Below, one piece after another: positions 1,215-29,228 of a stretch of 64,000 nucleotides of DNA. Numbering within the stretch: the first letter of the stretch is position 1; every line of letters starts with the position of its first letter. The notes under the pieces are model-generated. The model worked only from the letters and a program-made list of their open reading frames with translations. It did no database searches and had not been told where the DNA came from. Origin of the DNA: Thermococcus sp. (GTDB taxonomy: Archaea > Methanobacteriota_B > Thermococci > Thermococcales > Thermococcaceae); NCBI RefSeq assembly GCF_027011145.1, contig NZ_JALVAO010000060.1:1-64000 (forward strand). Direction: 5' to 3'. The position numbers were made by a program, and so were the translations under genes.

Positions 1215-1640
1215 CTAAACCTCTTCAATCTCCCAGTCTTCCCTCCTTTTCTTCTCGGCTTTTCTTCTCACTTCTTCGGCCTTTGTCCTCTTCGGCGGGT
1301 GAAAACCACGGAGCTTTTCAAAGGTTCCCCAGAGGCGCATGAGCTCCTCCCAGACTTCTGTATCGGGTGGGATAACGAGAACGTGGGCCGGCGGATGAAT
1401 GTCCATAAGCCTTCCGATGGCTTTCCGTGGGGGCAGGTCTATCTGGGCAACGACGTGGGCTTTAAACTTCTTCCTCGGCTTCTCACCGCTGATTTTCTCA
1501 AAGGCCCAGTCGGACAGAGCGGGGGGAATTATCCTCGGGTCACCGCGAATCTTCATTCCTCCATATCTCACGAGATCAGCTAAAGCTACACTTGCCTTCT
1601 GAAAGTTGTCGGCTCGTACTAAAACTATCGTGTTTCTCAT
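1215..1640 (-). CDS. Conserved archaeal protein, DUF356-like
   Basis: A 141-residue soluble protein beginning MRNTIVLVRADNFQKASVAL, a pattern I associate with the archaeal DUF356 family of unknown function; that assignment is from memory. The C-terminus is highly charged (KRTKAEEVRRKAEKKRRED). Its stop is one base past the stop of MBF1 (convergent). A CCTTTAAAAGG box at 1671-1680 probably provides the promoter. Confidence 0.6.
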   Translation of the reverse strand: MRNTIVLVRADNFQKASVALADLVRYGGMKIRGDPRIIPPALSDWAFEKISGEKPRKKFKAHVVAQIDLPPRKAIGRLMDIHPPAHVLVIPPDTEVWEELMRLWGTFEKLRGFHPPKRTKAEEVRRKAEKKRREDWEIEEV

Positions 1641-1779
1641 GGTCTCACCACCCTAACCTCAGCGGGTAACCTTTTAAAGGTTCGCCGATTTTAGTTACCG
1701 AAAGTTTTAAAAACTTTGCGTTTCTAAAAACCTCGGAGCCTTTTTAAGGGAGGAGCTGAGGAGAAGGAGGGGTGATAGA

Positions 1780-3483
1780 ATGTATCTGAAGAAGAGGCAC
1801 CTTGAGATACTCAGGGAGATGAAGAAGACCGAAAGTCAGGCCGAGATTGAGGCCAAACTGCCGGAGGAGTTCCAGATAAGGGCTATAGAGCTCTACATAC
1901 TCGGATTTGCCGAGCTCGATGGTGGAAAGATTAAGCTCACCGATGCCGGAAGGAAGCTCCTCGAGATTAGCGATTCACTCAACCTTGAGGAACTGCCGGA
2001 CGTTATAGCGGACACCGAGATTATGAAGATGCTCGAACTCCTTGAGGAGACCGGGAAGATACCCGAAAGCTGGCTCGAAAAGCTCAAGGAGAGAAAGCTC
2101 GCCGATGAGAACGGCCTTACGGAATTTGGGAGGGCCCTCCTCCAGCTCTACCGCGAGACCCACCCGGTTGTCTACTTAACCCCGGAGATAGCCTCGTTCC
2201 TGAGGGGAATGCCCAAGCTCGGAACCCTCGATGAGCTCGTTACCTTCAAGAACTCAAGGCTCTACGGCGATAACATCGTCAACGCCCTACAAGCCATGCG
2301 CCTGCTCCTGATTTCACCGCCAACCGAGAAGGGCAGGGCCTTCACAACGACCCCGGCGGCGAGGCTCGCACTTAAAGCTCTAAGCATGATTCCGGTTTTC
2401 GCCAGGGCGATAGTCCTCAGGAAGGAGGACTTCGAGGCCCTTAAGGCCGGAAGGAGCAACACCGAACTCGAGAGCATGGGCCTCAGCGACGAGAAGGGAA
2501 CGACCGAGTTTGGAAAGGCCATGATGGAGACCTACGAGGCGATGGGAAAAGTTGAGGAAAAGGTTCTCCCGATTTACCTACTCGAGGATGAGCTGAGCGT
2601 CCTCAAGGCAATTCAGGAGATAGAGAAGAAGTACGAAACCAACCCAGACGTTCTGCCCACCGAGAAGGAGATTGGAAAGAGGGTTGAAATCGAGGATCTT
2701 GGCGCGGTGCTTCACCTCCTCGAGAGCAAGGAGCTCGTTGAGAGAAGGCTCGTCAAAAACAAGGACACCTACTGGCTCACCGAGTGGGGCAGGGAAGCGA
2801 TAAACTTCGGAACAGTCAGCCCCGATGCCATGAAGGCGGTAACCTACAGCGAGAGCGGTGACGTGCCGATAGCGGAGTGGGTTATAAAGGCCCAGGAGGA
2901 GGGCGTCGTAAAGGCCGGCGTTACAGACAAGGGAAGGTTTTACCTGAGGCTCAGCAGGTCTATTGAGAGAAAGCCCTTCCTCACCAAGTACGATGTCGCG
3001 ATACTCGCCAAAACGCCGAGGAAGAAGTACATCCACAGGGATGAGCTTGTTGAGCTCGTCCAGAACTACGTGGGTGGCGACGAGAAGGAAATCACCAGGG
3101 CTATAGGAGAGGCCGAGGCTAAGGGCTTCGTCGTCGAGCTCCAGAACGGCATGGTGAAGCTCACGGAGCTCGGAGATAAGGTCAAGACAGCGTTGGAGAA
3201 CGCGAAGCTCCAGGAGATCCTGAAGGTCAAGTTCAGCGTCACGCCAACGCTCTACAACGTGCTCAGAGTCATCTACGAGAACCTGGAGACCTTCAACAGA
3301 ATCTGGAAGGAGAAAGGTGAAGTCAAGGGCTACAAGATGGAGGAAGTTGACGTCATCAGGAAACACCTCAGCCTGAGCGACGACGAGATAAAGAAGGCTT
3401 TAACGATGCTCCGCGAGCTTGGCTTCCTCGGAAGCAAGAGCTTGACAGAAGCAGGTAGGGTTCTCGTTGAGGCCTACCTTTGA
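1780..3483 (+). CDS. DUF505 family winged-helix repeat protein
   Basis: A 567-residue protein with repeated units of the form 'helix-helix-LT(D/E)xGR', for example KLTDAGRKLLE, GLTEFGRALLQ, WLTEWGREAI, KLTELGDKVK and SLTEAGRVLVE. Such strings are the beta-wing ends of tandem winged-helix domains, and the architecture fits archaeal DUF505. A nucleic-acid or protein scaffold role is plausible, but no function is known to me. ATG 1780 follows a strong AAGGAGGGGTGA site; CCTTTTTAAGG at 1739-1749 is a likely TATA box. The gene stands alone, 100 bases before TBP. Confidence 0.75.
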   Translation: MYLKKRHLEILREMKKTESQAEIEAKLPEEFQIRAIELYILGFAELDGGKIKLTDAGRKLLEISDSLNLEELPDVIADTEIMKMLELLEETGKIPESWLEKLKERKLADENGLTEFGRALLQLYRETHPVVYLTPEIASFLRGMPKLGTLDELVTFKNSRLYGDNIVNALQAMRLLLISPPTEKGRAFTTTPAARLALKALSMIPVFARAIVLRKEDFEALKAGRSNTELESMGLSDEKGTTEFGKAMMETYEAMGKVEEKVLPIYLLEDELSVLKAIQEIEKKYETNPDVLPTEKEIGKRVEIEDLGAVLHLLESKELVERRLVKNKDTYWLTEWGREAINFGTVSPDAMKAVTYSESGDVPIAEWVIKAQEEGVVKAGVTDKGRFYLRLSRSIERKPFLTKYDVAILAKTPRKKYIHRDELVELVQNYVGGDEKEITRAIGEAEAKGFVVELQNGMVKLTELGDKVKTALENAKLQEILKVKFSVTPTLYNVLRVIYENLETFNRIWKEKGEVKGYKMEEVDVIRKHLSLSDDEIKKALTMLRELGFLGSKSLTEAGRVLVEAYL

Positions 3484-3584
3484 ATTTTCTCTTCTTCAAT
3501 GTTCCATTTTGAGCATAAAGCTTTAAAAAGCGATTCCCTCATTTATAAAAGGGTTTTTAAACCCACCATTCGGAGGTGTAAACC

Positions 3585-4157
3585 TTGGTGGACATGAGCA
3601 ATGTAAAGCTCAGGATTGAGAACATCGTCGCTTCTGTTGACCTCTTTACGGAACTGAACCTTGAGAAAGTGATTGAAATCTGCCCCAACTCCAAGTACAA
3701 CCCGGAGGAGTTCCCCGGAATCATCTGTCGCTTCGATGAACCCAAGGTTGCCCTGCTTATTTTCAGCTCCGGGAAGCTCGTCGTCACCGGGGCCAAGAGC
3801 GTTGAGGACATAGAAAGGGCCGTTAACAAGCTCATCCAGATGCTCAAGAAGATTGGAGCGAAGTTCCACCGCGCGCCTCAGATTGACATACAGAACATGG
3901 TCTTCAGCGGTGACATCGGCATGGAGTTCAACCTTGACGCGGTTGCGCTGAGCCTTCCGAACTGTGAGTACGAGCCCGAGCAGTTTCCGGGAGTTATCTA
4001 CCGCGTCAAGGAACCGAGGGCCGTCATACTGCTCTTCTCCTCCGGTAAAATCGTCTGTTCCGGGGCCAAGAGTGAGCACGACGCCTGGGAGGCCGTCAGA
4101 AAGCTCCTCCGCGAGCTGGAGAAGTACGGTCTAATCGAGGAAGAGGAGGAGTGGTGA
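3585..4157 (+). CDS. tbp: TATA-box binding protein (TBP)
   Basis: A 190-residue TBP, the factor that bends TATA DNA and nucleates archaeal transcription initiation with TFB. It is the classical saddle of two direct repeats (about residues 8-92 and 98-183), each with the blocks [13 protein letters not shown] and LLIFSSGK-V-(T/S)GAKS. The acidic tail EEEEEW is typical of Thermococcales TBPs. The preferred start is TTG at 3585, six bases after GGAGGTG (3572-3578); GTG 3588 and ATG 3594 are alternatives. Upstream TATA candidates are at about 3540-3550. Confidence 0.97.
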
Positions 4158-4163
4158 GGCCTC

Positions 4164-5165
4164 TTGGCCTTCTCCGTTATCTACTCTCCTGTCTTCCTCG
4201 AACACAGGCCCGAGAACTATCATCCGGAGAATCCGGAGAGGCTGTTGAGGGCCGTAAAGGTTCTCCAGCGGTTGAACCTGTGGAAGCCCGTTGAACCGGT
4301 TCCGGTCCCGGAGGAAGAACTCCTAAGGGTTCACTCGAAGGAATACGTGGAGCTCGTGAGGGAGAAAAGTCAATCGTTTTCCTACCTCGACCCGGACACG
4401 TACGTCTCTCCCGGCACATGGGAGGCCTCTCTCCTCGCCTTCGGTGCTTCCCGCTTGGCAGTTGAGCTGGCCTTGAAGTATAGGGGCATATACCTTGCCC
4501 TCGTCAGACCACCGGGCCACCACGCCGGAAAATCCGGTAGGGCATTCAACGCACCGACGCTGGGCTTCTGCATCTTCAACAACTCAGCCTACGCCGCCAA
4601 AGTCGCCGAAGAGCTCACCGGAAAGGTTCTCGTCATAGACTTCGATGCCCACCACGGTAACGGGACTCAAGAGATACTCTGGGACGATAAAAATGCCGTC
4701 CACATAGACCTTCACGAGCGGGACATCTACCCCTGGAGCGGTTATGAGCACGAAGTCGGCGGAAAAGGGGCCGAGGGCACAAAAATCAACCTGCCCATGC
4801 CCCATTATGCAGGCGATGACGACTTCATCTACGCCTGGAGCGAGGTTGTTTTACCCGTTCTAGCCCAGCTCAAGCCGGAGCTTGTCATTGTATCGGCTGG
4901 CTTCGACGGTTTCCTCGGTGAAAACCTGACGACCCTTCGTCTTAGCGAACTCTTCTTCGCCTACGCCGGCTCAACGCTCTCACGCTACCCGCTGGCGGTA
5001 ATCTTCGAGGGTGGCTACTCCGTTGGTCTCGATAAAGGCCTGCCAGCTTTCATCAGGGGCTACCTCAGCGGGGAAATTCGGGAAGTTCCCGTAAGTCCGT
5101 CCTACGAGACCCTGAGAACCGTGGCGAGGGTGAAGGAGATACAGTCGGAGTGGTGGGAGTTCTGA
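4164..5165 (+). CDS. Histone deacetylase-family amidohydrolase
   Basis: A 333-residue zinc hydrolase of the arginase/deacetylase fold. Visible motifs are PPGHHAG (about 114-120), the metal-binding DFDAHHGNGTQ and SAGFDG segments, and the FEGGY tyrosine motif. Relatives remove acetyl groups from lysines, acetoin or acetylpolyamines; polyamine genes 10 kb away make acetylpolyamine a reasonable guess, no more. The start is TTG at 4164, whose GGTGAG ribosome binding site overlaps the TBP stop codon six bases upstream, so TBP and this gene are probably cotranscribed. Confidence 0.88.
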   Translation: MAFSVIYSPVFLEHRPENYHPENPERLLRAVKVLQRLNLWKPVEPVPVPEEELLRVHSKEYVELVREKSQSFSYLDPDTYVSPGTWEASLLAFGASRLAVELALKYRGIYLALVRPPGHHAGKSGRAFNAPTLGFCIFNNSAYAAKVAEELTGKVLVIDFDAHHGNGTQEILWDDKNAVHIDLHERDIYPWSGYEHEVGGKGAEGTKINLPMPHYAGDDDFIYAWSEVVLPVLAQLKPELVIVSAGFDGFLGENLTTLRLSELFFAYAGSTLSRYPLAVIFEGGYSVGLDKGLPAFIRGYLSGEIREVPVSPSYETLRTVARVKEIQSEWWEF

Positions 5166-5198
5166 CTTATAAGCAGGCAAAAAGAAAAATGTAAGGCT

Positions 5199-5807
5199 TC
5201 AAAGCCCCAGCATCTCCTTCGCGGCCTTGACACCCAAATCGAAGGCCTTCATGTTCACATCTATAGTCTTCGGCGGAACGCTTACGCGGATAACTTCTCT
5301 CACGTGCTCGGCCGAGAGAGGGAAGCCTGGCGTCTGGGTCAGTGCTCCGATAAGGACGACGTTGGTAGTGACTATGTTCCCGGCTTCCATGGCTAGCTTT
5401 TCAGCGTCGAAGGCCATGAACTTGCCCTCGAAGTCCTCCTCGATTATTTTTTTGATTTCCTCTAAACTCGGATAAGTGGCGAGCCCCATGGAGACTTGGA
5501 CAGGTGGAATTGGGCGAGCGTTAGTGAAAACCAGACCACCCTTTTTGAGATAATTGATGTAGCGCAGGGCCTCGACAGGCTCGAAGGACAGTATTACGTC
5601 GGCTTTTCCCTCTGGGACCATCGCGCCATAAACATCTTCGCCAAAGCGAACGTAGGCTATGACCGAACCGAAACGCTGGCTCATTCCGTGAACTTCTCCA
5701 ACGCGAACCTTGTAGCCGGCCCTCAAAGCCGCCCAGCCGAGCAGGTTCGCCGCGGTGAGGATTCCCTGACCGCCAACGCCGGTGATAACTATGTTGTATT
5801 CCCTCAT
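5199..5807 (-). CDS. iorB: Indolepyruvate ferredoxin oxidoreductase, beta subunit
   Basis: A 202-residue subunit of the enzyme that oxidatively decarboxylates aryl 2-keto acids (indolepyruvate, phenylpyruvate, hydroxyphenylpyruvate) to aryl-acetyl-CoA, reducing ferredoxin. The N-terminal [15 protein letters not shown] and MSQRFGSV segments are typical of the gamma-type domain of the 2-oxoacid oxidoreductases. ATG 5807 is two bases after the iorA stop and has GGTGA six bases upstream; a GTG at 5813 lies inside that site and is less likely. Last gene of a three-gene operon. Confidence 0.93.
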
Positions 5808-5809
5808 TT

Positions 5810-7753
5810 TCACTCACCCCCCTCAAGAGGCTCGAAGGCATCAAAGGGACAGACCTGCGCACAGCCGCCACAGCCCCAGCACATCGTTGGGTCTATCTTA
5901 GCTTTCTTCTTCTCTGCGTCCCAGTAGATTGCAGGACAGCCGTAGGCGTTGATACAAATCTTACACCCGGTACACTTGTCTTCGATGACATGGTAGATTG
6001 GCCACTTCTCTCCCTTCCTCCTCATCTGACCTATCCTGTATAGCGCACAGGGCTGTCTGGCAACGACAACGCTTACGCCGTCAACGGCTAGAGCTTCCTT
6101 TATTGCCCGCTCAGTTGCCTTTATGTCGTATGGGTCTACAACCTTAACGAAGTCCGCTCCCATTGCCTTGGCGACTTTCTCTATAAGTATCCTCTTGCCC
6201 GGTCCGTGAGGAGTGTCTCCGGTTCCGGGGTTGGGCTGGTCGCCGGTCATTGCCGTGACGAGGTTGTCGAGGACAACTATGACCACGTTGGAGCGGTTGT
6301 AGATTGCATTAGCCAAGGCAGGTAGGCCTGTGTGGAAGAACGTCGAATCACCTATGGTGGCGACTATTATTTTCTTCTCTTTACCGGTCTTCCTCTCTTC
6401 CTCGCCTGGAACGCCGTTAAGGGCAACATCAAGACCGTGAGCCATTCCTATAGAACCACCCATTGCTATTGTTGTGTCGACGGTCTTGAGTGGCGGTAAA
6501 ACACCGAGGGTATAACAGCCTATGTCGCTGGGGAATATTGCCTTTGGAGTTGCGGCGCGCCTAATCGCGTAGAAGGTGTTCCTATGCGGACAGGCCGGAC
6601 AGAGGCTCGGCGGCCTCGGTGGAACCATCTTCGAGACCTTTTCGTACTTCCTGTCTATCTCCTCAAAGTCTATCGGCGTTTCCATTCCAAGGAACTTGGC
6701 TATAGCTATTACAGCCCTCCTCGTAGTCATCTCGTAAACGCGCGGAACGAGGTCTTTGCCGTGAATCGGAATCCTCAGACCTTTATCATAGGCCCAGGTC
6801 TTGACCTGCTCCTCAACAACTGGTTCAAGCTCTTCAACGATGAGAACTTTCTCGAGGCCATCAAGGAACTTCTCGAGCAGGCCGTAGGGAACCGGGAAGG
6901 GCGTTCCGAGCTTGAGTATCTTGACATTGTCAACGCCGAGCCACGCCAGGGCCTCCTTAACGTATGCATAGCTGAGACCCGGGGCGATTATACCGACCTT
7001 GGCGTTTTCATCGCCTTCAATCCAGTTGAATGGGCTCTCATTAAATTCTTCACGGAACTTCTCGAGAGTCTCGAGCAACCATGGGTGCTTCTTCCTCTGG
7101 AAAGCCGGTATATCGACGTATCTCTCCGGGTTCTTCTCGAAGTTCCCGAACTTCCTCTTTGCCTGTTTTATCTCCTCCGGCAGTTCGCCCAGAACGACGT
7201 CGCCACGCATATGGGAGCTCCTCGTTGTTGTTCTGAGTATTATCATCTGGCCGTACTTCTCGCTTACCTCAAAGGCATACTTTACCATATCCTTTGCTTC
7301 CTGAACGCTTGAAGGTTCTAGGACAGGAATCCCTGCGCTTTTGGCTATTGCCCTTGTGTCCTGCTCGTTCTGACTGCTCCACATGCTCGGATCATCTGCT
7401 ACCATAACTATCAGTCCGCCGTTGACTCCCATGTATGTTGCTGTCATGAAACTGTCCATGGCAACGTTTAATCCAACGTGCTTCATTGCCGTCATGGCCC
7501 TGAGACCGCTCCAAGCCGCGGAAAGGGCCGTCTCAAATGCAACCTTTTCGTTGGTCGAGTATTCCATGTAAACGCCGGCCTTTTTGGCAACCATTGCCAT
7601 CGTGTCGGTAAGTTCTGAACTCGGCGTTCCAGGATAGGCGGCAAAAACTGCTATGTTGCCCTCTAAAGCACCGCGTGCTATGGCTTGATTCCCAAGGAGG
7701 AGAACTCTCTCCCCTGGCTTGTCCCACAACACTATATCTGTAACCTTCGCCAT
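5810..7753 (-). CDS. iorA: Indolepyruvate ferredoxin oxidoreductase, alpha subunit
   Basis: A 647-residue catalytic subunit. The N-terminal pyrimidine-binding domain is followed by the thiamine diphosphate motif [16 protein letters not shown]...VVLDN (about 445-485) and a C-terminal ferredoxin-like region with [14 protein letters not shown] and [12 protein letters not shown], ligands for two 4Fe-4S clusters; [10 protein letters not shown] near the middle is typical of the family. The start at 7753 has a full GGAGGTG site. It lies 38 bases after the acyl-CoA synthetase gene, linking keto-acid oxidation with ATP-forming thioester cleavage. Confidence 0.96.
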
Positions 7754-22799: not shown

Positions 22800-25004
22800 A
22801 TGAAAGGGAAAGTGGCAGTGACACTTCTGCTGGTTTTTGTTGTGGCATTTTCAGTAGTAGCTAGTGGCTGTATCGGTGGTGGGAGTAGTCCCACAACGAC
22901 AACAATAAGCCCCGCAGGGGGTTCTACTTCGACTTCTCAGGCATCCTCTACTCAAACGACATCAAGTTCTTCAACAACCGTGCAGTCATCTAAGGCTATA
23001 ACATATATTGAGGAGCACCTATCCAATGCGACGGTTATAGAAACTCCAAAGTACGTCGTCGTCGTTGGACCTGAAGGAAAGGGAGCCAAAGTTTCAAACC
23101 TACCCAACAAGCCGGTCATCGTGGTCTCTTACAAGGTCGATGAGAAGAAGACTCCTAGTATAGAGGAGCTCATGAAGAACCAACAGGGCTTCGGTCAAAT
23201 AAACCCTGCATTCCTCCGTGACCCGAGGATGGACGCTTTAATCCAGCTCGGCAGGAAAATAACAGATCCCAATATTAGGGAGGCACTATATAATGCCCTG
23301 TACATTCTTGCCAACAAAGAGGTTCCGGAGATAATTCTCGGTGATACTAAGGCTACCCGCGTCTACTGGAACTGGGTGCACAACTGGTATTACAATCCTG
23401 TTCTCGCACCGCGCTGGGACCTCGTTATGGAGGACAAGAACGCACCGACGGTCAGCATTGGAATAGGTGACTACAAGAACGAGCCCGGAACAATCGTTGA
23501 AACAACCATAGGATGGCCGAGCTCCTTCGACCCGGCATTTGACTACGAGACCTTTGGATGGGCCCTCTACCACAACGTTGGTGATACCCTCGTTACATAC
23601 TGGGAAAACGAGACCAAGAAGGTTTCACCCGACTTGGCTGTCGCGTGGGCCCACAACAAGGACGGAACCGTCTGGTACTTCGTTATAAGGGGAGGAGTTA
23701 AGGCTTACGACCCCAAGACCGGCAAGCTCTATCCGATTAATGCTACGGATGTTGAATTTGAGTTCTGGCGCATTCTCAGGGCAGGTTACTCCGTCAACTG
23801 GATGCTGGCAACCTACACCGACCTCAACAAGAGCTATGCTATGAGTGAAAGCGAGTTTGAGAAGGTTCTCCAGAACGGTGGAATAATAGCCGACTTCAAC
23901 GGCAAGACAAAGGAGGTTAAGAGTCTCAACGAGCTCCTCCAGTTCTTCGGCTACAGCGGACCAACTGCTGGAGTTTACAAGCTCGTTCTCCCGCACCCAT
24001 ACGGTGGAATACTGAGCGTTCTTGCAGACCCATACCTGATGGTCATCCCCGCGAAATACCTGCTCGGAGACAAGTACGAGGAGGCCATGAAGGCCTCTGA
24101 CTGGGGTAGAAAACCATGGGAGTGGGCCAAGTACGTCCAGCCGGGTTCAAAGGACCCAATACACCAGATGCTTCAGAACAACTACATTGGAGTGTTCACC
24201 GGGCCGTTCTACATCAAAGACGCCAAGCAGAACAGCTACATAATCCTTGAGAGGAACCCCTACTACTGGAACTCCAGCGTCTGGAGCAAGCTGGAGGAGA
24301 AGTATCCGAATTACGTCACGACCAAGCGCGTCATATACGTCCTCTCAGACGATGCAACAACGCGCATAAGCCTCTTCCAGAAGGGTGTTGCGGATATAGC
24401 GGCGGTTCCAGTTGACAGGCTCGACGCGGTCAAGAACCTCAAGCTCGGCAACTTTGAGTCAAAGATTGACTCCTTTGTCACACCGGATATGGTGTTCATA
24501 GTTCTCAACGCCGCGAAGAAGCCCTTCGATAACGTCAAAGTGAGGGAGGCCCTTGCTTGGGCAACACCCTACGAGCAGATTTACCAGGCGGTTTACAAGG
24601 GCTACATGGTGCCGAACTACGGCCCGATTCCAATTGGATGGCTCGGCTATACCGAGTGCTGTGTCATCAAGTACAAGTACAACATCGCAAAGGCACTCCA
24701 GCTTATCAGGGAGTCCGGCATAAACCCAAGTGACTACACCATAACGATTTATTACAACACCGGAAACACCCAGCGTGAAAAGATAGCAACGCTCCTCCAG
24801 AACACGTGGGGACAGCTTGGTTTCAAGATTTCAGTTACGCCTCTCTCGTGGCCGACACTCCTGAGCAAGACGGCCAGCGGAGACTTTGATGTCTACATCG
24901 TTGGATGGGCACCCGACTTCCTCGACCCCGACGACTACGTCGGCCCATTCCTCCAGAGTGCTGTTGTCTTTGACAGCCTCAACTACGAGGTTATTGAAGG
25001 GTGA
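22800..25004 (+). CDS. Family-5 peptide ABC transporter binding lipoprotein, apparently circularly permuted
   Basis: A 734-residue extracellular binding protein. The signal peptide ends in lipobox ASGC with Cys24, followed by a Ser/Thr-rich linker (about 29-64), typical of archaeal surface lipoproteins. Oddly, residues about 139-203 (DPRMDALIQLGRKITDP...ILANKEVPEI...VYWNWVHNWYYNP) resemble the C-terminal end of family-5 binding proteins. The usual N-terminal signature (SSFDPAFDYETFGWALYHNV) comes only at about 241, and the chain stops about 22 residues after DPDDYVGPF, where relatives continue for roughly 100. The order thus looks circularly permuted. ATG 22800 follows GAGGTGAGC. Confidence 0.88.
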   Translation: MKGKVAVTLLLVFVVAFSVVASGCIGGGSSPTTTTISPAGGSTSTSQASSTQTTSSSSTTVQSSKAITYIEEHLSNATVIETPKYVVVVGPEGKGAKVSNLPNKPVIVVSYKVDEKKTPSIEELMKNQQGFGQINPAFLRDPRMDALIQLGRKITDPNIREALYNALYILANKEVPEIILGDTKATRVYWNWVHNWYYNPVLAPRWDLVMEDKNAPTVSIGIGDYKNEPGTIVETTIGWPSSFDPAFDYETFGWALYHNVGDTLVTYWENETKKVSPDLAVAWAHNKDGTVWYFVIRGGVKAYDPKTGKLYPINATDVEFEFWRILRAGYSVNWMLATYTDLNKSYAMSESEFEKVLQNGGIIADFNGKTKEVKSLNELLQFFGYSGPTAGVYKLVLPHPYGGILSVLADPYLMVIPAKYLLGDKYEEAMKASDWGRKPWEWAKYVQPGSKDPIHQMLQNNYIGVFTGPFYIKDAKQNSYIILERNPYYWNSSVWSKLEEKYPNYVTTKRVIYVLSDDATTRISLFQKGVADIAAVPVDRLDAVKNLKLGNFESKIDSFVTPDMVFIVLNAAKKPFDNVKVREALAWATPYEQIYQAVYKGYMVPNYGPIPIGWLGYTECCVIKYKYNIAKALQLIRESGINPSDYTITIYYNTGNTQREKIATLLQNTWGQLGFKISVTPLSWPTLLSKTASGDFDVYIVGWAPDFLDPDDYVGPFLQSAVVFDSLNYEVIEG

Positions 25005-25060: not shown

Positions 25061-26062
25061 GTGGCAGGGCTTGGAAAATTCCTGGTGAGAAGGGCGCTGA
25101 CGTTTGTTCCAACTCTCATTGGGGTTACGCTCATTGTTTTCGTTATAGCCTACGTGATTCCCGCCAATCCCGTCCGTGCCTGGGCGGGGGGTGAAAAGGC
25201 TTCTCAAGCCGCGATTGAGATGATTAAGAAGGAGTACCATCTCGACCAGCCGTGGTACGATCAGTATATCTTTCTTGTAAAGGGCCTCTTTACGAACTCT
25301 CTCCTTGACCCCTTGAATCAGGAGCCCGTCTTTGACAACATAGGTAACAGGTTCGTTGTGACTTTTCAACTGGCGTTGTTTGCATTCTTTTTTGTTGTGC
25401 TTATGGGATTACCCCTCGGAATAATCTCGGCCCTAAAAAGGAACAGCACAGTGGACATGGTGCTCAGAATAATAGCCTTGGTCTTCATATCAACTCCAAT
25501 TTACGTTATAGCTTACCTCTTCATATGGCTCTTCTTCATCCACTGGAACGCAACAACACTCGCAGGAATACCCCCTGGACCGCCACATAAAATAACCCAT
25601 ATCCCTGTGATAGATGACATCCTAACCCTCAACTGGAGCAACTTCGTTCAGCAGGTAAAACGTTTCTGGCTCCCGGGCTTTACCCTTGGAATAGCGGCAG
25701 CTGGTGTTCTAATGAGGTTCACAAGGAACTCCTTCCTTGAGGCATACAGTAGGGACAGCACGCTGTTCCTCAAAGCAAAGGGTGTTCCTAAGAGCAGGCT
25801 TTACAGACACGTCCTCAAGAACGCCCTCGTCCCTGTGATAACCATACTGGCTCTCCAGTTCGGCGGGCTTCTGGCCGGAACACCGATTACGGAGACCGTT
25901 TTCAACCTTCCGGGAATAGGTCGCTACGCACTTCAGGCAATAATGTATCTGGACTTCCCGGCTTTGATAGGCGTCACGTTCCTCTACGCGATAGTCTTCG
26001 TCACGGCAAACCTGATAGCCGACATACTCTACGCGATAATCGACCCGAGGGTTAGGTTCTGA
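25061..26062 (+). CDS. Peptide ABC transporter permease (DppB-type)
   Basis: A 333-residue inner permease with six membrane helices. The N-terminal RRALTFVPTLIGVTLIVFV, the family loop and the EAA motif region (EAYSRDSTLFLKAKGVPKSRLYRHVLKNALVPVIT) that contacts the ATPase are clear. I start at GTG 25061, eight bases after GGGAGG; an in-frame GTG at 25001 overlaps the preceding stop and would translate the T-rich tract. It forms the membrane channel with the DppC-type partner. Confidence 0.92.
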   Translation: MAGLGKFLVRRALTFVPTLIGVTLIVFVIAYVIPANPVRAWAGGEKASQAAIEMIKKEYHLDQPWYDQYIFLVKGLFTNSLLDPLNQEPVFDNIGNRFVVTFQLALFAFFFVVLMGLPLGIISALKRNSTVDMVLRIIALVFISTPIYVIAYLFIWLFFIHWNATTLAGIPPGPPHKITHIPVIDDILTLNWSNFVQQVKRFWLPGFTLGIAAAGVLMRFTRNSFLEAYSRDSTLFLKAKGVPKSRLYRHVLKNALVPVITILALQFGGLLAGTPITETVFNLPGIGRYALQAIMYLDFPALIGVTFLYAIVFVTANLIADILYAIIDPRVRF

Positions 26063-26073
26063 GGGTGGTGGTC

Positions 26074-27273
26074 ATGGTCAAACAGGAGGAATACGAACCA
26101 AAGGAAGAGTACGAGATGAGCATACTGGATAGAATCAGTGACAGGCTCATAGACGGCCTTGCATCCTTTATAAGCCTCTTCAAAAAGGACTGGAAGCGAA
26201 GGAATCAGTCGAGAATTAAAGAATGGAAGCTAATGGCGTACGCCATAAACCGTTCCCCTCCGACGTTGCTCGGGCTTTTCATAGTCATCATTTACATCTT
26301 CATCGGCATATTTGGACCTTACTTGACTCCTTGGTCGTATGACTTCTTCCCAGTGAATTACAACTACTCAACCCAGCTTGCACCACCGGGCTCGACTTAC
26401 TTCCTCAACGTTACGGAGCTCAAAAACGGGTACATAATCCACTACACGACATACATCCACTATCCCCTCGGTTCGGACACCTACGGAAGGGACGTTCTTA
26501 GTCTTCTTCTCGCGGGAGCCAGAACGGCGCTGGTGTTGGACATATTTATCATCCTCATAGGCCCGACAATAGGAATAATCCTCGGACTGATTTCCGGCTA
26601 CTACGGTGGGAAGGTCGATGAGGTCATAATGCGTATTACGGACATGTTCCTGGCATTCCCGGGGCTTATACTCGCCATTGCCCTCTCCGCGGTTCTACCG
26701 GGCAGAATTCAGAACTTCCTGAATGCCCACACATGGGCCCAGACGCTCGTTTTAAAGCTCTTCGCATTGCACCCGAGAGACGTTAACAACCTTGGAAAGC
26801 TCTTGGCGGTTTTTGTCGCTCTGGTCATAGTCTGGTGGCCGGGCTACGCTAGGGTAACGCGCGGTTCAACGCTGACGGAGAAGGAGAACCTATACGTCGA
26901 GGCTGCCCGTGCGATAGGCCTACCAACCAGAACGATACTCTTCAGGCATATACTTCCCAACATCATAGGCCCTATTTTGGTTATGATCACGATGGACTTC
27001 GGTGGAATAATCCTTACGGAGGCTGGCCTGAGTTTCCTTGGACTCGGTGCCGTTCCACCAATACCGGACTGGGGTAACCTAATCAACCAGGGTTCACAGC
27101 AGTTCCCACAGGCATGGTGGCTCGTTGCCTTCCCGGGATTGGTTATAGTCACCGTCGTCCTTGGCTGGAATCTCCTCGGTGATGGTTTGAGAGACGTCCT
27201 TGACCCGAGGACAAGGAGGAGCCTCGAGTTCAAACTCAAGAAGAAGTCCGGTGGGGGTGAAGAGAATGCCTGA
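26074..27273 (+). CDS. Peptide ABC transporter permease (DppC-type)
   Basis: A 399-residue second permease. A charged cytoplasmic N-terminus of about 65 residues precedes the first helix (PTLLGLFIVIIYIFIGIFG). An extracellular insertion (about 90-135) leads to HYPLGSDTYGRDVLSLLLAGARTAL, the standard DppC entry. The EAA loop is YVEAARAIGLPTRTILFRHILPNIIGPI. ATG 26074 follows GGGTGGTG. It overlaps the next ATPase gene by eight bases. Confidence 0.93.
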   Translation: MVKQEEYEPKEEYEMSILDRISDRLIDGLASFISLFKKDWKRRNQSRIKEWKLMAYAINRSPPTLLGLFIVIIYIFIGIFGPYLTPWSYDFFPVNYNYSTQLAPPGSTYFLNVTELKNGYIIHYTTYIHYPLGSDTYGRDVLSLLLAGARTALVLDIFIILIGPTIGIILGLISGYYGGKVDEVIMRITDMFLAFPGLILAIALSAVLPGRIQNFLNAHTWAQTLVLKLFALHPRDVNNLGKLLAVFVALVIVWWPGYARVTRGSTLTEKENLYVEAARAIGLPTRTILFRHILPNIIGPILVMITMDFGGIILTEAGLSFLGLGAVPPIPDWGNLINQGSQQFPQAWWLVAFPGLVIVTVVLGWNLLGDGLRDVLDPRTRRSLEFKLKKKSGGGEENA

Positions 27274-28246
27274 GCCCATCATAGAAATCAAAAACCTCAG
27301 CGTTTACTTCTACACCTACGCAGGTGTTGTCAAGGCGATAGAGAACGTGTCCTTTGACATCTACCGTGGCGAAACACTGGCCCTCGTCGGTGAGACCGGC
27401 TGTGGAAAAAGCGTCACCTCAAGGGCGATAACCAAGCTCATCGAGAGCCCCGGTAGGATAGTGAACGGTCAGGTGATTTACCACAGGGACGACGGCTCAA
27501 CAATCGATTTGCTCAAGCTAAGCGAAGAGGAGATACGGGAAATCCGGGGTAATGAGATAGCATACATCTTCCAAGACCCGCATTCCTCCCTTGACCCCCT
27601 GTACACCGTTGGATATCAGATAGGTGAGGCCATGGAAGTTCACGGCAAGGTCAAGAACATAAAAGAAGGCATAGCGAAGGCTGTGGACATTTTGAGGGAA
27701 GTCCTCATCCCAGATCCTGAGAGGAGAGTTAAAAATTATCCCCATGAACTTTCCGGGGGTATGAAACAGAGGGTTGTGATTGGAATAGGGATAGCCAACA
27801 ACCCGAGGTTGCTCATAGCTGACGAGCCCACAACCGCGCTCGACGTTACCGTTCAGGCACAGATACTCGAGCTTCTCAACGAGCTGAAGAGAAAATATAA
27901 TGCGACAGTTCTCCTCATAACTCACAACCTGGGTGTTGTTGCGGAAACGGCCCAGCGCGTCGTTGTCATGTACGCGGGGAAGGTTGTTGAGATAGGCAGT
28001 GTTGACCAGATATTCCACAACCCCCTGCATCCATACACCATTGCACTTCTCAGGGCAGTGCCAAACCCCCTAAAGAGGATAGAAAAGCTCGAGAGCATTC
28101 CCGGAACAGTCCCGAACCTTATAACTCCACCGAAGGGCTGTCGCTTCCACCCGAGATGCCCACTGGCTGAAGAGCGTTGCAGAAAAGAGGAGCCCAAACT
28201 CAAGGAGATAGAACCGGGCCATTTTGTGGCCTGCCACAGATACTGA
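27266..28246 (+). CDS. Peptide ABC transporter ATPase (DppD-type)
   Basis: A 326-residue ATPase with Walker A GETGCGKS, Q-loop FQDPHSSLDP, signature LSGGMKQRVVI, Walker B LLIADEPTTALD and switch His in LITHN. The C-terminal oligopeptide-ATPase extension includes CRFHPRCPLAEERC, cysteine ligands of the 4Fe-4S type seen in this subfamily. ATG 27266 overlaps the end of the permease gene, so translation is coupled. Confidence 0.94.
   Translation: MPEPIIEIKNLSVYFYTYAGVVKAIENVSFDIYRGETLALVGETGCGKSVTSRAITKLIESPGRIVNGQVIYHRDDGSTIDLLKLSEEEIREIRGNEIAYIFQDPHSSLDPLYTVGYQIGEAMEVHGKVKNIKEGIAKAVDILREVLIPDPERRVKNYPHELSGGMKQRVVIGIGIANNPRLLIADEPTTALDVTVQAQILELLNELKRKYNATVLLITHNLGVVAETAQRVVVMYAGKVVEIGSVDQIFHNPLHPYTIALLRAVPNPLKRIEKLESIPGTVPNLITPPKGCRFHPRCPLAEERCRKEEPKLKEIEPGHFVACHRY
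28130..28155. repeat. 26-bp exact repeat in paralogous ATPase genes, copy 1
   Basis: These 26 bases, encoding PKGCRFHPR, recur exactly at 29100-29125 in the second ATPase gene. The surrounding genes have diverged in many synonymous positions, so the identity hints at conversion or strong constraint. Confidence 0.7.
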
Positions 28247-28256
28247 GGTGATGACG

Positions 28257-29228
28257 ATGGAACCAGTGCTCAAGGTTGAAAACCTCAAAAAGTATTTCCC
28301 CGTTAGGAGCCTCCTGAGAACTGTTGCGTGGGTTAAAGCCGTTGATGGAGTCAGCTTCGAGATAATGCCCGGTGAAACCTTTGGACTGGTTGGGGAAAGC
28401 GGTTGCGGGAAGACAACCACGGGAAGAACAATACTCAGGCTCATCGAACCGACAGAGGGCAAGATTACCTTTATGGGAAAGGACGTGACAGGGCTCAAGG
28501 GGAAGGAACTCCTCTGGTTCAGGCGACATGCCCAGATAATGTTTCAGGACCCGTATTCCTCCCTTAACCCAAGACAGACAGTTTTCAACATTATAATGGA
28601 GCCAGTCAAGTTCCACGGTATAGAGGTCGATGACCCGGAGGAGTTCGTTATACGCCTGTTGGAGAGCGTTGGTCTTAACGAGATGCACCTCTACCGCTAT
28701 CCCCACGAGTTCTCCGGGGGACAGAGACAGAGGATTGCATTGGCTAAAATACTCGCACTTCAGCCCGACTTCGTTGTCCTTGACGAACCAACTTCCGCCC
28801 TCGACGTTTCGGTTCAGGCCAACATTTTAAACACCCTCAAGGAGCTCCAGAAGAAGCACGGCTTTTCGTATCTCTTCATAAGCCATGACCTTGGCGTTGT
28901 CAAATACATGAGCCACCGCATGGGGGTCATGTACCTCGGAAAGCTCGTGGAGATAGGCCCGGCCGAGAGAATCTTTGAGAACCCGCTACATCCCTACACC
29001 CAGATGCTCCTCTCGGCCATACCAATCCCCGATCCCGAACTCGCAAGGAAAAAGAAGAAAATGGAAATTAAGGGCGAACCTCCGAGTCCAATCAATCCGC
29101 CGAAGGGCTGTCGCTTCCACCCGAGGTGCCCCCTGGCCAAGGCAGGACTCTGCGACAAGAAAGAACCGCCTCTCATCGAAGTTGAAAAAGACCACTACGT
29201 GGCCTGCTGGCTCTACGCAAAGTCCTGA
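28257..29228 (+). CDS. Peptide ABC transporter ATPase (DppF-type)
   Basis: A 323-residue partner ATPase: Walker A GESGCGKT, Q-loop FQDPYSSLNPRQ, signature FSGGQRQRIAL, Walker B FVVLDEPTSALD, switch FISHD. The C-terminal CRFHPRCPLAKAGLC repeats the motif of the DppD-type protein, with a 26-bp exact DNA repeat between the two genes. ATG 28257 is five bases after GAGGTGA; ATG 28251 is too close to it. The last 16 bases overlap the convergent hypothetical gene. Confidence 0.94.
   Translation: MEPVLKVENLKKYFPVRSLLRTVAWVKAVDGVSFEIMPGETFGLVGESGCGKTTTGRTILRLIEPTEGKITFMGKDVTGLKGKELLWFRRHAQIMFQDPYSSLNPRQTVFNIIMEPVKFHGIEVDDPEEFVIRLLESVGLNEMHLYRYPHEFSGGQRQRIALAKILALQPDFVVLDEPTSALDVSVQANILNTLKELQKKHGFSYLFISHDLGVVKYMSHRMGVMYLGKLVEIGPAERIFENPLHPYTQMLLSAIPIPDPELARKKKKMEIKGEPPSPINPPKGCRFHPRCPLAKAGLCDKKEPPLIEVEKDHYVACWLYAKS
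29100..29125. repeat. 26-bp exact repeat in paralogous ATPase genes, copy 2
   Basis: Second copy of the 26-bp identity found at 28130-28155, in the same codon phase of the DppF-type ATPase gene. Confidence 0.7.

Follow-up and report, generated by a model that had tools for sequence, protein, structure and literature searches.

The operon in the window (the whole analysed stretch of 64,000 nucleotides of a Thermococcus sp. contig) begins with a gene encoding a lipoprotein whose front resembles the part with which its relatives end. This raises the question of whether a family-5 (SBP_bac_5) solute-binding protein (SBP) has been circularly permuted here and, if so, by which route its ends were moved. 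The gene is directly followed by dppBCDF, i.e., two permeases and two ATPases, and its permuted and canonical relatives likewise head a dppBCDF operon. Judging by sequence, the window gene encodes the lipoprotein that captures substrate for a Dpp/Opp-type ABC importer. The features of the locus are given in Table 1.

Table 1. Features of the permuted lipoprotein gene and its operon (positions in the window).
Feature	Position	Strand	Basis or remark
ORF, lipoprotein of 734 aa	22800-25004	+	sequence
Signal peptide and lipobox (...VVASGC, lipidated Cys24)	22800-22871	+	sequence
Ser/Thr-rich tether, residues 25-66	22872-22997	+	sequence
Beta-hairpin insert, residues 67-126, carries the new N-terminus	22998-23177	+	cut-site alignment; strands in AlphaFold2 model
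Block C, residues 127-208, canonical C-terminal segment moved to the front	23178-23423	+	tblastn, hhalign
C-to-A joint, residues 209-229, canonical C- and N-termini fused	23424-23486	+	
Block A, residues 230-498, canonical N-terminal lobe, starts ...IGWPSSFDPAFDYETFGW	23487-24293	+	block HMM, hhalign
A-B loop, residues 492-511, both type-2 termini here (cut 504/505)	24273-24332	+	alignment
Block B, residues 511-734	24330-25001	+	block HMM, cut mapping
Asp706 in GWAPD	24915-24917	+	invariant in orthologs
DppB-type permease, GTG start at 25061 preferred	25061-26062	+	PF00528, PF19300
DppC-type permease	26065-27273	+	homolog at the same place in type 1, type 2, and canonical loci
DppD-type ATPase, true start probably about 27266	27200-28246	+	
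DppF-type ATPase	28224-29228	+	

The sole match above the Pfam cut-off is SBP_bac_5 (PF00496), which covers residues 274-721 (E 2.1e-62), and the nearest solved relatives found by phmmer are DppA/HbpA-type binding proteins. The 78 aa fragment of the front block alone gives zero Pfam match because the best PF00496 match sits entirely within the core. With phmmer, residues 129-178 pair with residues 425-474 of the solved chain 3m8u, beyond the part matched by the core; this match is weak when taken alone. Two of three phmmer alignments close with a weak last domain that places query residues between 129 and 200 at the C-terminal end of the chain. When the tblastn query was split, residues 140-201 were matched downstream of the core in nearly all of the approximately 55 distant relatives (Thermotogota, Atribacterota, Chloroflexota, Thermoproteota, and others; core identity about 21-30%), with E-values down to 6e-10. 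The front block, residues 66-214, was also compared by hhalign with a whole profile of 46 canonical proteins, on which it was free to match anywhere; it was placed at columns 499-563 of 575 (probability 98.1, E 1.3e-13), and the core, residues 215-734, at columns 11-494 (E 1.8e-67). Given this placement and the segment order in tblastn, the front block is homologous to the canonical C-terminus. The sequence-only reading had held that residues of about 139-203 are the extreme C-terminal part of SBP_bac_5 placed first; both searches agree with it, and nothing in the separate alignments of front and core to the family profile speaks against it.

Thus, the C-terminal segment of canonical SBP_bac_5 proteins is present, at the front of the chain. 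The canonical succession, from the N-terminal lobe through the middle to the C-terminal segment, is not kept: block HMMs give the order C-A-B, and for this reason the window protein was classed as a permuted variant and not as a canonical member. CAB is obtained from the orders ABC and BCA of its relatives by rotating the homologous segments cyclically. The family-5 signature of the N-terminus, SSFDPAFDYETFGW, appears late, at residue 241, and the chain ends in block B 17 residues past GWAPDFLDPDDYVGPF (...DPDDYVGPF), and not about 22 residues past it as had been counted. We therefore identify the 734-aa protein, as far as its primary structure tells, as a circularly permuted family-5 solute-binding protein; sequence, profile, and ortholog evidence all agree with the permuted, linker-tethered protein that had been suggested.

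The front does not exactly correspond to the missing C-terminal block, as had been assumed. The homologous segment comprises residues of about 140-204, whereas the beta hairpin at residues of about 66-126 has no counterpart in canonical relatives according to the cut-site alignment. In the alignment with type-2 relatives (see below), this insert runs on from block B without a break. The insert may be a relic of earlier terminal extensions. The A-B loop is longer in the window protein than in canonical and type-1b proteins. In the lipobox region, V19, A21, G23, C24, G26, and G27 are invariant in 16 orthologs; the tether evolves fast (dN 0.2-0.7 in most ortholog pairs), and block C is under strong purifying selection (dN/dS 0.02-0.05). 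The synonymous divergence of the front (23025-23441) is about twice that of the remaining part (23442-25001) or more in all ortholog pairs tested (e.g., 1.74 vs. 0.78).

The AlphaFold2 model built from 14 type-1 sequences is of moderate confidence (pLDDT 78.7, pTM 0.69). Its top Foldseek matches are DppA/OppA/NikA-type cluster C SBPs, with TM-scores by target length of 0.47-0.62 at the best ranks. Most of the mapped cut sites lie in loops or at loop edges of this model; the model of a type-2 permutant (6 sequences) was discarded due to its pLDDT of 47.9. The cluster B sugar-binding fold was not recognized, as both sequence and fold matches are cluster C peptide/nickel binders. The body is predicted to fold into the normal two-lobed shape. 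The lipidated Cys24 and the Ser/Thr tether would hold it at the membrane, and peptides bound in the usual cleft at Asp706 would be delivered to DppBC, powered by DppDF. Since Asp706 is invariant and, by alignment, is probably the counterpart of the Asp that binds the ligand alpha-amine in OppA/DppA, peptide binding by the window protein is likely.

When block A (217-498), block B (511-734), and block C (70-213) were used for profile searches over the relatives' loci, several orders emerged. Canonical ABC was found only in distant relatives. Type 1 (CAB) is represented in Thermococcaceae and many Thermoproteia, and type 1b (CAB with a shifted cut) forms a basal archaeal group. Type 2 (BCA) is found in Desulfurococcales and further members of that class, and also in three Thermococcaceae genomes of the genus g2 (Palaeococcus-type), one of them single-contig. 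Type 3, starting at about residue 552, is known from one contig (L077, binned as Thermoplasmata). Starting points elsewhere in the chain thus occur in relatives 50-81% identical to the window protein. In window numbering (last/first residue), type 1 of the window is cut at 734/66 and several crenarchaeal type-1 proteins at 76/77, so that crenarchaeal members open the same hairpin at differing residues; the cuts are 94/95 in type 1b, 504/505 in type 2, 551/552 in type 3, 572/573 in type 4, about 432/437 (~435) in type 5, and about 207/217 in canonical proteins. The type-3 and type-4 cuts fall inside block B. Every archaeal permutant type (1, 1b, 2, and 3) has an unbroken C-to-A joint, and each complete permutant examined carries, ahead of its new start, a signal or membrane segment and a low-complexity tether of its own.

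Types 4 and 5 belong to Anaerolineae, where they occur among mostly canonical relatives; type 4 apparently arose twice and type 5 once. A canonical relative of a type-4 protein (L289) is 68-78% identical to it per block, i.e., closely similar canonical and permuted forms coexist in this group. The joints of types 4 and 5 in Anaerolineae and relatives (L122, L282, L285) are clean head-to-tail ones: for example, the canonical C-terminus ...YYYAYSK is followed within a few residues by the canonical N-terminus KNPDTF. Type 5 contradicts the idea that permutation always shifts the tether to the second lobe, and this idea was given up. A plasmid search for homologs gave only distant ones (~25%).

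Two readings that deny a permutation can be weighed against these data. If the front block were a foreign or additional domain, with a C-terminus that is merely truncated, the lack of Pfam marking at residues 1-273 would be accounted for; however, the hhalign match of this block to the canonical C-terminus and the tblastn segment order in distant relatives contradict this, as does the fact that both B-C and C-A are continuous in type-2 relatives, and we regard it as very improbable. An assembly or annotation artefact might be suspected given that the window comes from a 70-contig draft, but the chance of this is negligible. The window order is present at full length in some 55 Thermococcaceae genomes, which is why, together with the usual dppBCDF setting and the purifying selection, the order is not an assembly artefact; many of these are single-contig chromosomes, including those of other species, and type 2 is likewise seen in a single-contig genome. 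As to whether Thermococcales orthologs share the order, which had been raised as a check, Thermococcus- and Pyrococcus-type genomes do, whereas Palaeococcus-type genomes carry a different permutant. In a few Thermococcaceae (G003, G017, G099, and G051; loci L158-L160), type-1 copies are broken by a frameshift or stop, which suggests either that the system is lost now and then or that the sequences contain errors.

For phylogenetic analysis, all bodies were rotated to the canonical order. The archaeal permuted family is monophyletic (100/100), and seven order changes can be noted on the 62-row tree, five of them inside this family. The AU test rejects type 2 as a single clade (p 5e-58), as well as types 1 and 1b together (p 1.6e-33). 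Several other permutants therefore exist besides that of the window, with statistically distinct origins. The g2 type-2 proteins are nested in type 1 (100/98, and 96/92 with one type-1 sister); they share 79-81% identity with the two nearest type-1 proteins and only 49-51% with type 2 of Desulfurococcales. Given this nesting and the identity of ~80% against ~50%, the switch in g2 is recent and was not a transfer. The dipeptide/oligopeptide system PAP_00150-00170 of Palaeococcus pacificus, which is transcribed and lowered by sulfur (PMC6981617), is, from the gene number, probably the type-2 operon. The A-B loops of crenarchaeal type-1 proteins (YYWNKTLWNTKPYGENGKPLHERVIYL) resemble joined type-2 ends (...YYWNKDLWEKEYGYKP + KAIHKQVLYV) and may be the scar of re-fused type-2 termini; the loop of type 1b is short (YYWRGKPSIEEV), like several canonical loops. 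By parsimony, at least nine relocations at seven sites are needed (in the archaeal family, its origin plus five switches; in Anaerolineae, three more), a count that depends on the trees and on cyclic order being treated as a simple character.

Taken as a whole, we are confident that a canonical family-5 body, the lipoprotein of a Dpp/Opp-type ABC importer, was permuted and fused and then re-opened repeatedly. Tandem duplication with trimming is the likeliest route, and permutation by duplication (PMC3320104) is the simplest model here. A canonical gene would have been tandemly duplicated and fused and then cut down to one body; the effectively circular body would have been re-opened repeatedly, probably through further rounds of duplication and trimming, its termini shifting between the hairpin (residues 734/66-95) and the A-B loop (residue ~505), and once to ~552. 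In a Chloroflexota relative (L287, G632:C43), two canonical family-5 SBP genes stand head to tail (ORFs of about 1571-3640 and 3644-5905). They share one reading frame, with just a stop codon and a new leader between them, and are the substrate that the duplication model requires. The 1465-aa frame in this genome was rejected as a double-length gene, being these two separate adjacent genes. Another candidate for a double SBP, a 1296-aa ORF of Chloroflexota (L280, G346:C76), was rejected too: it encodes a BTAD/AAA-type regulator-like protein fused to an SBP-like domain at the C-terminus. The duplication that the sequence-only reading had proposed is made plausible by the tandem copies. Neither double-length fused SBPs nor partial duplicates were found among the sequences examined, and when the DNA downstream of permuted genes was searched for remnants, nothing rose above noise; therefore, the mechanism is one that we infer.

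Other routes can be considered in this light. One ancestral tandem-fused double might have persisted and been trimmed differently in each lineage, so that a single duplication would underlie all archaeal orders. The C-A joint common to all archaeal permutants agrees with this, and distinct trims would account for the differing hairpin cuts (734/66, 76/77, and 94/95). We consider it unlikely, however, as a double-length protein is absent among the sequences examined and Palaeococcus-type type 2 branches within type-1 sisters of single length and ~80% identity, so that the double form would have had to survive unseen until recently; the likeness of some type-1 A-B loops to re-fused type-2 termini also opposes it. 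A one-step route by fission and fusion, or by re-insertion of a copy derived from circular DNA or RNA, agrees with the lack of intermediates or fragments in the sequences examined. Pyrococcus furiosus produces circularly permuted 23S rRNA (PMC7758197), which shows only that circular RNA intermediates exist there. This route seems less probable still: the anchor remains N-terminal with only the body rotated, and the in-frame tandem copies provide a ready substrate for duplication. A further idea is that the body is evolutionarily circular and that its opening point and tether attachment were re-chosen repeatedly in place (the relocations counted above, including returns to the same site), adaptively and with altered docking on the permease; we hold this to be doubtful.

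Most of the natural circular permutants known are single, divergent pairs. Here, chain order differs between orthologous operon genes of about 80% identity, and several independent relocations strike a few recurrent loops. With natural pairs as similar as these, often from thermophiles, the mechanism, the tolerance, and the possible benefit of moved ends become testable. Annotation by linear profiles hides these proteins, since the Pfam model either leaves a portion of the chain unmatched or splits into two matches.

One binding protein that is permuted in nature is already known, TpMglB-2 (Tp0684), a circularly permuted glucose-binding lipoprotein designated 'Type Ic/Cluster Bc', whose authors raised a link between permutation and tethering, with tethering as a suggested driver (PMC4990184). 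The open-access literature searched yielded no account of family-5 SBPs with permuted chains, nor of an SBP family permuted more than once, i.e., of such hopping of the ends. Like the window protein, TpMglB-2 serves an ABC system as an SBP that is held by a lipid tether and permuted in nature, with a permutation common to its relatives. However, it is a sugar binder of cluster B, with one permutation type reported and weak sequence similarity in the permuted part, whereas the window family belongs to cluster C (family 5) and has several cut sites and strong similarity between orders. With DppA, OppA, and NikA (SBP_bac_5, cluster C), the window protein shares the sequence family, the dppBCDF operon, and the predicted fold; it differs from them in its rotated chain, the hairpin insert at the new termini, and the site on the body from which the tether extends. 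Permuted motif orders are also found in DNA methyltransferases, with several cyclic orders in one family, attributed to duplication (cited in PMC3320104). Intermediates are documented for them, whereas none was seen among the sequences examined here; unlike them, the window family contains orthologous operon genes of ~80% identity that differ in order, and its repeated switches are supported by trees.
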